Of a stretch of DNA of 39,574 nucleotides, positions 31,283 to 38,814 are shown one piece after another. Source of the DNA: a virus. The DNA lies in the IMG/VR virus record IMGVR_UViG_3300015242_000031, positions 1 to 39,574 of that record; one strand, written 5' to 3'. The stretch's first letter is position 1. Every line of letters begins with the position of its first letter. The notes under the pieces were generated by a model. The model had not been told where the DNA came from. It made no database searches and saw only the letters and a list, made by a program, of their open reading frames with translations. The translations under genes and the position numbers were made by a program.

Positions 31283-31570
31283 GTGCCCAGCCGCAAAGGA
31301 AGTCCGAACAAGCTCAACGCCGGGGCGAAAGAGAATATCGCCGCTGTCTTCACACGCCTGGGTGGAACAGCCGAAATGGCCAAATGGGCAAAGGCCAATC
31401 AGACCGAGTTCTACCGCCTCTATGGCCGGCTCGTTCCGGTCGAACAGCAGCATAGCGGGGCGGTAGGTACTTATGCAGCCCAGCCCATCCCCGTCGAACA
31501 ACGAGACGCTTTACCCCTGGCGGGCACAAACGGGTCCGCAGTTAACGGCCATTCAACGCCATCTGATTGA
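31283..31570 (+). CDS. terS: Small terminase subunit-like protein (95 aa)
   Basis: GTG 31283. KGSPNKLNAGAKENIAAVFT then LGGTAEMAKWAKANQTEFYR fits the small DNA-binding helical domain of phage small terminases, although the protein is shorter than usual. It overlaps terL by 98 nt in another frame. It would recognise the packaging site and regulate TerL; the assignment is from position and pattern. Confidence 0.65.
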   Translation: MPSRKGSPNKLNAGAKENIAAVFTRLGGTAEMAKWAKANQTEFYRLYGRLVPVEQQHSGAVGTYAAQPIPVEQRDALPLAGTNGSAVNGHSTPSD

Positions 31571-33773
31571 CGAGCTGTTCTACGGCGGCGCCGTCGGGGG
31601 CGGCAAGAGCGATTACCTACTCGGTGACTTCGCCCAGGACGTGCCCAGTCCCTGGGGTGCGCATTGGCGCGGGATCCTCTTCCGCAAGACCTACGCCGAG
31701 CTCGAAGACCTGATCAGCCGCAGCCAGCAGATCTATCCGCCTTGGTTCCCGGGCTGCAAGTGGAGCGTGCAGGATAGCCTATGGAGCTGGCCCAACGGCG
31801 CGACCTTGAAGATGCGCTACCTCGAGTCCGCCACCGATTGGATGCGCTACTGGGGCCACGCCTATACCTGGATCGGCTGGGATGAGCTGCCCAATTGGCC
31901 GGACATGGATTCCTACGTGAAGATGAAAGCGCGCCTCAGGAGTGCCTATGACGTTCCCAACAAACGAATCCGTGCCACCGGAAACCCTGGCGGACCGGGT
32001 CACTCGAGCGTCAAAGCTTATTTCCGAATCGACCAGCATCCGCTCGGTGGTGAAATCTTCGAACAAGGGGGCATGAAACGACTTTTCGTGCGATCCCGAC
32101 TCGCTGACAACCGCATTTTATTGCGTCATGACCCCAAATACGCGCAGAGACTTGCGGGGCTGGGTTCCCCCGACCTGGTCCGCGCCTGGCTGGAAGGCGA
32201 TTGGAACGTCATTGCGGGTGCGTTCTTCCCGGAGTTCGGCGATCGCCACATTGTCGACCCCATCGAACTACCGAGCCATTGGACGCGCTTTCGCGCCATG
32301 GACTGGGGATCGGCCAAGCCCTTCAGCGTCGGCTGGTATGCGGTCTCAGACGGCGAGCTGCCACAGTTTCCCCGCGGTGCGCTGATCAAATATCGCGAGT
32401 GGTACGGCATGATCGAAGGCCAGCCCAATACCGGCCTGAAGATGACCGCGACCGAAGTAGGGAAGGGCATTGTCGCGCGGCAGGAGAAGGACGAACTTAT
32501 CTCCTATTCGGTGCTCGATCCCAGCGCGTTCGCCGAAGATGGCGGACCCAGCATTGCGGAAATGCTCTCCAAGGCCGGCGCCGTCTTCCGAGCGGCCGAC
32601 AACAAGCGCATAACGCAACGCGGAGCCATGGGCGGCTGGGACCAGGTGCGCGGACGCTTGAAGGGCGATGCCAAGCCCATGCTCTACTTCTTTTCCACCT
32701 GCACGCATACAATCCGGACGCTTCCGGCGCTCCAACATGACGTCACGAAGCCGGAAGATGTCGACACAGACGCCGAAGATCACTGTTTTGCAGCCGACAC
32801 AATGATTGCGGTTGAGGGAGTCCCTCGGACTATCGCATCGCTTGTGGGCACTTCAGGGCGGATTCATTCGAAGAGCGGCTTGGCCGATTACCGCAACGCG
32901 CGGTTGACGAGGCGTAATGCACGTGTGGTTCGAATCTGGTTCGCGGATGGCACAAACGTGGTTTGCACCCCGGACCATCGATTTATGCTGATTTCCGGAG
33001 ACTGGAAAACAGCCGAGGACCTAACGGATGAAACCTGCTATTCTAAAGCATGGTCATCATCATCAGTGCGACGATTCAAGAATTCCACGGCGTTCGCTAT
33101 TACCGCTGCGGTCCGTATTTCCAGCGCAAAGGCGTACGCCTTCATCGTGCGGTGTGGGAAAGCATTCACGGGGCCATTCCAGATGGATTCCACATCCATC
33201 ACGTGGACCACGACCGAGCCAATAACGAGCCCGAGAATCTCCAACTCATGCTCGGGACTGAGCACGTTGGAGAGCACGGCCGAGACATTGCCAACCTTGC
33301 TCAGATCGTCCCTCGATTGGAGCAGGCGCGCATCGCCGCTGCTTCATGGCATGGAAGCGATGAGGGCAAACGCTGGCATAGCGAGCACTACGAACGGCAC
33401 ATCCGGCCGGTCATGGGGCGAACGGTTGAGAAGTCTTGCCAGCAGTGTGGCAAGCATTATTCAGTCATTGCTTCCAAAGCGGGCGAATCCAAGTTCTGTC
33501 ACGCCAATTGCAAAGCACGCGCATTGCGTGCGCGTCGAAAGGCTCAGCGAGCCGACTGACGTCTACTGCCTGACGGTTCCGGACGCGGGGTGCTTCGCGC
33601 TCGCATCGGGCGTCATCGTCTCCAACTGCGGAGACGAGACACGCTATGCGTGCATGTCCCGTCCCTGGACTCAGTCTATTCCCGCAGATTCAGGACCGCC
33701 GCGAGGCGCGCGCACCATCGAGGAGATGGTCCGGCGTCACGAAGCACGGCAAGAGGAATACAGGAGGATCTAA
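31473..33773 (+). CDS. terL: Large terminase subunit (TerL) precursor containing an intein
   Basis: A 766-aa precursor. The ATPase half has Walker A GGAVGGGKS (residues 38-46), Walker B WIGWDE (133-138) and the GNPGG coupling element. The nuclease half begins AMDWGSAKPFSVGWY. Its final active-site motif DTDAEDH...CGDETRY is split by a 281-residue intein between His437 and Cys719. After splicing the protein would be 485 aa, normal for TerL. It translocates DNA into the prohead and cuts the concatemer. The stop TAA overlaps the next ATG. Until splicing, the nuclease motif is broken, so packaging depends on splicing. Confidence 0.9.
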   Translation: MQPSPSPSNNETLYPWRAQTGPQLTAIQRHLIDELFYGGAVGGGKSDYLLGDFAQDVPSPWGAHWRGILFRKTYAELEDLISRSQQIYPPWFPGCKWSVQDSLWSWPNGATLKMRYLESATDWMRYWGHAYTWIGWDELPNWPDMDSYVKMKARLRSAYDVPNKRIRATGNPGGPGHSSVKAYFRIDQHPLGGEIFEQGGMKRLFVRSRLADNRILLRHDPKYAQRLAGLGSPDLVRAWLEGDWNVIAGAFFPEFGDRHIVDPIELPSHWTRFRAMDWGSAKPFSVGWYAVSDGELPQFPRGALIKYREWYGMIEGQPNTGLKMTATEVGKGIVARQEKDELISYSVLDPSAFAEDGGPSIAEMLSKAGAVFRAADNKRITQRGAMGGWDQVRGRLKGDAKPMLYFFSTCTHTIRTLPALQHDVTKPEDVDTDAEDHCFAADTMIAVEGVPRTIASLVGTSGRIHSKSGLADYRNARLTRRNARVVRIWFADGTNVVCTPDHRFMLISGDWKTAEDLTDETCYSKAWSSSSVRRFKNSTAFAITAAVRISSAKAYAFIVRCGKAFTGPFQMDSTSITWTTTEPITSPRISNSCSGLSTLESTAETLPTLLRSSLDWSRRASPLLHGMEAMRANAGIASTTNGTSGRSWGERLRSLASSVASIIQSLLPKRANPSSVTPIAKHAHCVRVERLSEPTDVYCLTVPDAGCFALASGVIVSNCGDETRYACMSRPWTQSIPADSGPPRGARTIEEMVRRHEARQEEYRRI
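32784..33626 (+). mobile_element. Intein in TerL (281 aa) with out-of-frame nested endonuclease
   Basis: The intein spans Cys438 (CFAADTMIAVEG, block A) to Asn718. Block B is GTNVVCTPDHRFM with the TxxH motif, then SGDWKTAEDL. Block F is TDVYCLTVPDAGCFAL and block G is SGVIVSN before Cys719; the penultimate His is replaced by Ser. The region between (about 33050-33527) shows no endonuclease in this frame: it is Ser/Thr/Arg-rich (e.g. STSITWTTTEPITSPRIS). An HNH gene occupies it in a different frame. The intein is therefore a splicing domain split by an overlapping free-standing endonuclease. Confidence 0.9.
33050..33559 (+). CDS. HNH homing endonuclease nested out of frame inside the intein (169 aa)
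   Basis: Reads in frame 2 while TerL/intein reads in frame 3, i.e. -1. Residues about 8-45 (RYYRCGPYFQRKGVRLHRAV) are followed by the HNH core GFHIHHVDHDRANNEPENLQ-LM, then a C-terminal zinc site (SCQQCGKHYS ... FCHANCKARAL). A TAA at 33044 stands two codons before the ATG, so the gene starts there and is not reached by ordinary -1 shifting before it. No good Shine-Dalgarno is seen. Its last ten codons overlap intein block F coding. It would cut intein-less terL to spread the intein; this is inference. Confidence 0.85.
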   Translation: MVIIISATIQEFHGVRYYRCGPYFQRKGVRLHRAVWESIHGAIPDGFHIHHVDHDRANNEPENLQLMLGTEHVGEHGRDIANLAQIVPRLEQARIAAASWHGSDEGKRWHSEHYERHIRPVMGRTVEKSCQQCGKHYSVIASKAGESKFCHANCKARALRARRKAQRAD

Positions 33774-38295: not shown

Positions 38296-38814
38296 ATGGA
38301 AAACTGGAAAGCAATTGCTGGGTATGAGGGATTTTACGAGATCAGTGATCTCGGTCGCGTTCGTGGGATTGATCGCCTTGATCCGCGTGGCAAGAGAATC
38401 AAAAGCCGGGTGCTGCGGCCTTCCATAAATAAGGGATATCCCAACGTGCATTTGAGCCGGCGCGGCAAAGTTAAAACATTCCAAGTGCATACGTTGGTGT
38501 TGACAACTTTCATTGGACCAAAGCCCAGCGGTAAAGAATGCGCGCATGCCGATGGCGATCCTGGGAATGCAGCTCTTTTGAATCTTTCATGGAAAACGCC
38601 CAAGGAGAACTGCGCAGATTGGCTTCGTCACGGAACAGATAAGCGCGGTGATAAACACCCGCTTGCGCGCCTTTCTCAGGATGATGTAGTGCAAATCAAG
38701 GCGCTGCGAGCAGCGGGAGCCATGTACAAAGTGATTGGATGGAAATTCTCAATTCATCCTATCCACGCCAGAAATATTGTCATAGGCAAACGGTGGAAAC
38801 ACGCAAATGCCTAA
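38296..38814 (+). CDS. NUMOD4-HNH homing endonuclease (172 aa)
   Basis: Opens with the NUMOD4 motif (NWKAIAGYEGFYEISDLGRV), then an HNH nuclease core (VHTLVLTTFIGPKPSGKECA, HADGDPGNAALLNLSWKTP) and a C-terminal helix-turn-helix for DNA binding (LARLSQDDVVQIKALRAAG). It starts directly at the stop of the virion gene and ends overlapping the PAPS-like gene. The homologous junction at 320-324 lacks it completely, showing it is an insertion. It would cut HNH-free copies of that junction. Confidence 0.85.
   Translation: MENWKAIAGYEGFYEISDLGRVRGIDRLDPRGKRIKSRVLRPSINKGYPNVHLSRRGKVKTFQVHTLVLTTFIGPKPSGKECAHADGDPGNAALLNLSWKTPKENCADWLRHGTDKRGDKHPLARLSQDDVVQIKALRAAGAMYKVIGWKFSIHPIHARNIVIGKRWKHANA

Follow-up and report, generated by a model that had tools for sequence, protein, structure and literature searches.

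A putative HNH homing endonuclease gene nested out of frame in a terminase intein, and the states of one TerL insertion site

Introduction

A mobile intein is usually regarded as a single bifunctional protein, and the entry of endonuclease genes into inteins is a debated step for which few intermediates are available. A viral locus raises this question in an unusual form. In IMG/VR record IMGVR_UViG_3300015242_000031, of which the stretch analysed here (39,574 nucleotides, positions 1 to 39,574, hereafter the window) was first read from its letters and open reading frames only, the gene for the large terminase subunit (terL) contains an intein, and an HNH endonuclease is encoded within that intein in a different frame. 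Are both frames genes, could the open double frame be an accident, and how might such a locus have arisen? The reading that we consider highly probable is that of an intein which only splices, with the homing endonuclease supplied by a separate gene that is nested in it and has an internal start. In the following, we summarize the anatomy of the locus, the states found at the same TerL site elsewhere, the constraint on the two frames, and the possible translation and origin of the HNH gene.

The TerL intein and the nested HNH gene

The sequence-only reading had placed an intein with splicing blocks A, B, F, and G in TerL and a complete 169-residue HNH protein with its own ATG, closely preceded by an in-frame TAA, in the -1 frame; all coordinates and the splicing residues were confirmed (Table 1). 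The first residue of the intein is Cys1 (32784) and the last is Asn281 (33624-33626), which is followed by Cys+1 (junction SN/C). Taken alone, it matches Pfam Intein_splicing with an E value of 4.6e-9, which passes the curated cut-off, and among 42 diverse inteins of the family no column is invariant except those of the splicing residues Cys1, Thr62, His65, and the terminal Asn281. Cys1, a block B of the type TxxH, and a C-terminal Asn followed by Cys, together with a Hint fold and a precise insertion into a conserved gene of which intein-less alleles exist, characterize it as a class 1 intein. Split inteins of fractured genes occupy two ORFs, whereas terL of the window is a single one (31473-33773), and the intein differs from a bifunctional intein, in which the endonuclease is in frame and part of one polypeptide, by an HNH gene in the -1 frame with its own start and stop.

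Table 1 Features of the terL locus in the window
Feature	Position	Strand	Basis or remark
terL (large terminase), single ORF, 766 codons including the intein	31473..33773	+	PHROG 2 / 979 terminase large subunit, E 1.5e-29 / 1.1e-26; TerL homologues
Intein, 281 aa, within TerL nuclease-domain motif EDH^xxDxxRY	32784..33626	+	Intein_splicing, invariant residues, Hint fold model, empty-site DNA
N-terminal splicing part: block A from Cys1; block B TPDH, Thr62 (32967), His65 (32976)	32784..33049	+	
TAA in the HNH frame closely upstream of the HNH start; HNH frame closed toward the N-terminal intein part	33044..33046	+	
GCA TGG (Ala-Trp in the intein frame), final A + TG = HNH ATG	33048..33053	+	Shine-Dalgarno absent upstream, dG +2.2
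Putative nested HNH homing-endonuclease gene, -1 frame relative to TerL, 169 aa, ATG to TGA	33050..33559	+	HNH_3, PHROG 15471, model
HNH catalytic core: His32, His50-His51, Asn59, Asn63, His72	33143..33265	+	Invariant in 27 nested HNH proteins
Zinc-ribbon-like tail: Cys130, Cys133, Cys150, Cys154	33437..33511	+	Invariant in 27 nested HNH proteins
C-terminal splicing part: block F TDVYCLTVPD, block G GVIVSN; Cys+1 next, at 33627	33555..33626	+	TIGR01443
TerL C-extein CGDETRYACM...	33627..33773	+	

No endonuclease is encoded in the intein's own frame, as had been noticed, and the endonuclease slot holds the HNH_3 gene in the -1 frame instead. The HNH ORF matches Pfam HNH_3 (E 6.1e-14) and the HNH endonucleases of PHROG 15471 (E 4.3e-35), and it resembles homing endonucleases of this kind in its catalytic residues and in its patchy presence alongside carrier-free alleles. 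Its structural model has a pLDDT of 92, and its best solved relative is I-HmuI (PDB 1U3E), with a profile E value of 0.0012 and a weak fold match. Read in the TerL frame, the HNH core becomes the string STSITWTTTEPITSPRIS, which was found as claimed. In the AlphaFold model of the window intein, residues 1-90 and about 245-281 have pLDDT values of 84-98, mostly 96-98, and residues 91-210 are mostly below 57; the model thus predicts with confidence a Hint fold and, where the HNH gene is read out of frame, a mostly disordered loop, in agreement with the earlier proposal that the host frame reads this region as a linker. The predicted fold matches the DnaB, RecA, and DnaE inteins in the PDB, and the nearest solved intein by sequence is gp41-1. 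Downstream of the portal gene and a virion structural protein gene, at 38296-38814 on the plus strand, the window contains another free-standing HNH endonuclease gene of a different kind (PHROG 1492, E 2e-41).

The insertion site lies in the nuclease domain of TerL. Among 82 TerL homologues (80 viral contigs and two phage records), the site is empty in 80, one sequence is cut off before the site, and a single one (L218) carries an intein, in which an HNH gene is again nested in the -1 frame. One TerL with an empty site (L170) is 95% identical to that of the window, so the insertion is either recent or mobile. The empty site reads GAAGATCAC directly joined to GCAGGAGATGAGACACGC; the filled site of the window reads GAAGATCAC, then the intein (TGT...AAC), then TGCGGAGACGAGACACGC.

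States of one TerL site

A census was made with the TerL-intein junction as query, i.e., blind to the endonuclease, to avoid the bias of HNH-seeded searching. It comprises 67 non-redundant loci (clusters), of which 42 have the HNH gene nested in the -1 frame (in a few of these the C-terminal part of the intein was not seen), three have it nested in the +1 frame, and 14 are split inteins with an HNH gene; the remainder consists of one split intein lacking the HNH gene, five mini-inteins, one in-frame fusion, and one locus of undetermined class. The nested -1 arrangement of the window is therefore not unique but the commonest state at this site. The arrangement recurs in dozens of diverse phages, and the worry of the sequence-only reading that no homologue might share it is dispelled.

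The nested form is present in the records of Tetrasphaera phage TJE1, Acinetobacter phage Highwayman, and a Rhodobacteraceae phage, and assemblies from bacteria and archaea contain it too. Annotation of the three phage records that were checked (OP947163, TJE1, and Highwayman) shows only TerL at the locus and misses the nuclease. One nested -1 HNH intein lies in a TerL-like gene of a Candidatus Nitrosotalea assembly (L126), on a contig binned as archaeal; this could be an archaeal virus or a case of mis-binning. In an assembly of an uncultured Clostridium sp. (L146), a single TerL gene is interrupted twice by inteins with a nested -1 HNH gene; both insertions lie elsewhere in TerL than the one in the window, apparently close to Walker B and to nuclease motif I.

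The ordinary bifunctional form, an in-frame HNH fusion, occurs in one lineage of the census only (L303/L306). This lineage lends some appeal to the idea that sequencing or assembly indels merely shifted an ordinary in-frame HNH intein, a concern that the sequence-only reading had raised itself. The -1 frame, however, was found in dozens of independent contigs and in phage records, among them those of TJE1 and Highwayman, and +1 loci exist too; each case would take two compensating indels without creating stops, and the HNH gene has its own start and stop and often a Shine-Dalgarno sequence. As a general explanation, sequencing indels are refuted by this recurrence, and we regard such an artefact at the present locus as next to impossible.

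The other states of the site differ in what has become of the HNH gene. In three loci (L304, L316, and L320), the nested HNH gene is partly deleted and the intein frame is still open. The mini-inteins (L252, L279, L298, L299, and L309) comprise 126-170 residues, are inserted at the same TerL site, and are scattered among nested inteins on the tree; they are also candidates for short natural cis-splicing inteins. In the split loci, the N-terminal ORF usually ends shortly after the HNH start, many have a strong HNH Shine-Dalgarno sequence (GGAGGT, dG near -10.6), and the start of the C-terminal intein half often overlaps the HNH stop as ATGA or GTGA. The loci L166, L130 (a Leuconostoc falkenbergense contig), L052, L056, L084, L087, L102, and L113 have such split TerL inteins, the two parts of which flank the HNH gene; L166 is Lactobacillus phage CL2, for which terminase, HNH, and portal are annotated and the split intein is absent from the annotation. 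As judged from these sequences, the pattern looks like a homing life cycle in which the nuclease is gained and lost and the splicing domain stays.

Open double frame and selection

How surprising is an intein frame that stays open across the HNH gene? The expected number of stops was obtained by holding the HNH protein fixed, re-drawing its synonymous codons by shuffling, and counting stops in the intein frame. Under this shuffling, a stop-free intein frame in the window has a probability of about 0.05-0.11 given the HNH protein, so that the open double frame of the window is by itself only suggestive and could have arisen by chance. The same calculation was applied to a set of 73 loci, which was assembled from an HNH-seeded search, phage records, and a scan of reading frames in which the splicing parts served as profiles, and from which near-copies were removed by hand. 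In this set, the HNH gene is in the -1 frame of an uninterrupted intein in 49 loci and in the +1 frame in 10, 14 loci are split, and in none is it in frame. Not a single intein-frame stop occurs across the HNH gene in the 49 nested -1 and 10 nested +1 loci, where synonymous shuffling predicts 1-5 stops in most -1 loci (fewer than one in a few) and 4-16 in the +1 loci; the summed log10 P for stop absence is about -67 for the former and about -32 for the latter. The split loci serve as a built-in control because the split form does not need the intein frame, and their intein-frame stops are close to the expected number. The absence of stops across the relatives is decisive for the open double frame.

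By the same shuffling, the -1 register costs fewer stops than the +1 register. The GC-rich free-standing HNH genes of Yuavirus (L032 / L033) are also stop-free in the register used by the nested HNH genes; this is probably due to chance, and such an open register may be one reason why this HNH family can be nested.

Differences between close relatives show which of the two frames is maintained. The loci L005 and L009 differ at HNH codon positions 1, 2, and 3 by 7, 4, and 49 nucleotides, with 96% identity in the HNH frame versus 66% in the intein frame, and the +1 pair L051/L059 differs at these positions by 10, 5, and 25. Since close relatives vary mainly at HNH third positions, the HNH frame is the selected one. 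In the window, the GC content of the overlap by codon position is 0.65, 0.44, and 0.63 in the HNH frame, which is like that of the TerL and portal genes; read in the intein frame it is 0.44, 0.63, and 0.65, unlike these genes. The third-position differences and the HNH-frame GC pattern together indicate a real HNH gene under selection, which in its relatives is of the purifying kind. Across the overlap, the intein frame is constrained mainly against stops. The locus is also a clear natural example of overlapping frames under highly unequal constraint.

These data also bear on the alternative that the HNH gene is a fossil, an inactive and untranslated remnant in an intein that now only splices. 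The window HNH gene is not preceded by a Shine-Dalgarno sequence, and the site does harbour mini-inteins as well as nested HNH genes that are degraded; against this, the window HNH gene is full length with every invariant catalytic and zinc residue, its codon positions have a coding-like GC content, and the HNH frame of its relatives is under purifying selection. We therefore regard a fossil as improbable.

Translation of the HNH protein

In the window, neither a Shine-Dalgarno sequence at the HNH start nor, locally, a promoter-like site for the HNH gene was found, and the predicted RNA fold at the start is not unusual (z -0.62). A Shine-Dalgarno sequence is likewise absent in most +1 loci and in most loci in which the HNH gene starts at a Gly-Trp motif; it is present before the HNH start in 10 of 22 late-start -1 loci and, among the split loci, in 10 of the 13 to which a start was assigned. 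An intein Trp codon that follows A or G supplies the HNH start in many -1 loci (xxR-TGG giving RTG), and this origin of the start may help to explain why the -1 register is preferred. Reuse of the conserved intein Trp codon is a tendency and not a rule: it does not hold for all -1 loci, and Cys codons are used in others.

The -1 register common to most nested loci would also be expected if programmed -1 ribosomal frameshifting were the sole source of the HNH protein, which would then always be fused to the N-terminal part of the intein, and an in-phase slippery heptamer is located near the HNH start in 5 of the 49 nested -1 loci. The other 44 lack such a heptamer, the +1 class would require the opposite slip, and in the window the HNH frame contains a TAA two codons ahead of its start, which leaves room for a slip only after this stop; moreover, the Shine-Dalgarno sequences at many HNH starts point to separate initiation. 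Frameshifting as the sole route is thus very unlikely, still less likely than a fossil gene, and internal initiation of a separate HNH protein remains the preferred reading.

Proposed mechanism and origin

The mechanism that we propose would work as follows. Two separate genes on shared DNA would form one mobile element. The class 1-type intein, made as part of TerL, would consist of a splicing domain and a disordered loop, the latter arising when translation of TerL reads the HNH region in the wrong frame, and it would excise itself so that the nuclease motif of TerL is restored. The HNH_3-type endonuclease would be translated separately by internal initiation at the ATG inside the intein gene and would cut the intein-less terL (EDH^xxD site) of co-infecting phages, and repair of the cut terL would copy the whole intein together with the nested HNH gene. 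Selection would preserve the HNH protein and in the intein frame would mainly forbid stop codons. The earlier suggestion that splicing and cutting are carried out by separate products stands insofar as the two are encoded in separate frames of one locus; the activities themselves are inferred.

For the origin of the arrangement, the sequence-only reading had proposed that a free-standing gene invaded a mini-intein. Relatives of the nested HNH genes do occur as free-standing genes beside an intein-less terL in Yuavirus and other phages, and mini-inteins occupy the same site, so that it is plausible that an endonuclease gene linked to terL invaded a mini-intein. Free-standing relatives adjoin terL in many phages (L031, L032, L033, L036, L167, and L169), and in Shemara (L167) the HNH gene lies near terL on the opposite strand, which suggests terL-linked homing endonucleases before or without an intein. 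The mini-inteins scattered among the nested ones could equally be HNH losses, and loss does happen, because degraded nested HNH genes exist. The best trees contain 11-12 state changes, of which strongly supported branches force only 1-3 per class; they suggest several changes between states, with a direction that is left unfixed by their poor resolution.

A different origin, which concerns only how the nested form came about, would be the closure of a split intein by loss of the gap stops between two intein genes. Split inteins whose halves flank the HNH gene, with ATGA/GTGA overlaps, are frequent at this site, and they have the best Shine-Dalgarno sites for HNH. They are, however, mostly confined to one region of the (poorly resolved) tree, whereas nested forms are widespread, and losing many stops at once is harder than gaining one. 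This origin is unlikely in our judgement, though it deserves more weight than the fossil and frameshift alternatives.

Starting again from nesting by invasion, we lean slightly toward a broader interpretation, in which out-of-frame nesting is a recurrent and stable mobile-intein architecture: free-standing HNH genes would repeatedly settle in splicing domains in either alternative frame, with the nuclease selected in one frame and mainly selection against stops in the other, and the locus would move among mini-intein, nested, and split states. If recurrent nesting is true, it would supply a missing intermediate in the invasion of inteins by endonucleases and a route to natural split inteins. 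With empty, mini, two-frame nested, in-frame, degraded, and split forms at one site, these steps can be ordered and tested.

Comparison with known systems

I-HmuI is encoded in a group I intron. It shares the HNH core with the window protein, and apart from that core identity is low. The free-standing HNH proteins of the Yuavirus members PAE1, SN1, and FBPa53 and of Brevundimonas phage Poludnitsa belong to the same family (44-51% identical), but unlike the window gene they are encoded at their own locus beside an intein-less terL and are not nested. Dassa and colleagues reportedly described in 2009 fractured genes whose split inteins flank a free-standing endonuclease (gp41-1 / NrdJ-1 type). 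These genes share with the window an independent endonuclease ORF in the endonuclease slot; the window intein, in contrast, is contiguous in cis, and the split form is a sister state at the TerL site.

The inteins of mycobacteriophage TerL proteins contain LAGLIDADG endonucleases and are placed in the ATPase domain by Kelley et al. (PMC5050341). Such canonical bifunctional inteins (PMC5050341) are like that of the window in having the endonuclease between blocks B and F of the Hint domain, TerL as host, and empty alleles; they are unlike it in that the window endonuclease is separate, out of frame, of the HNH_3 instead of the LAGLIDADG type, and located at a site in the nuclease domain. The closest published precedent comes from a phage methylase, in which the ShiLan domain is an HNH insertion in an alternative frame; the authors found no splicing domain, neither intein nor intron, and predicted that the insert stays in the protein (PMC11855218). 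Common to both cases are an HNH with zinc fingers in an alternative frame, a host frame that is open throughout, a patchy distribution, and a translation that is unexplained, whereas the window HNH gene lies inside a clear intein with all splicing residues and has terL as host gene.

In the searchable literature, no inteins were found to be described elsewhere that contain an endonuclease in another frame. The preprint 10.1101/2025.01.02.630785, which PMC11855218 cites for actinobacteriophage inteins with a 'non-canonical architecture', may describe the same arrangement. Within the searchable literature, what is new relative to known mobile inteins is the endonuclease as a separate gene nested in the intein.
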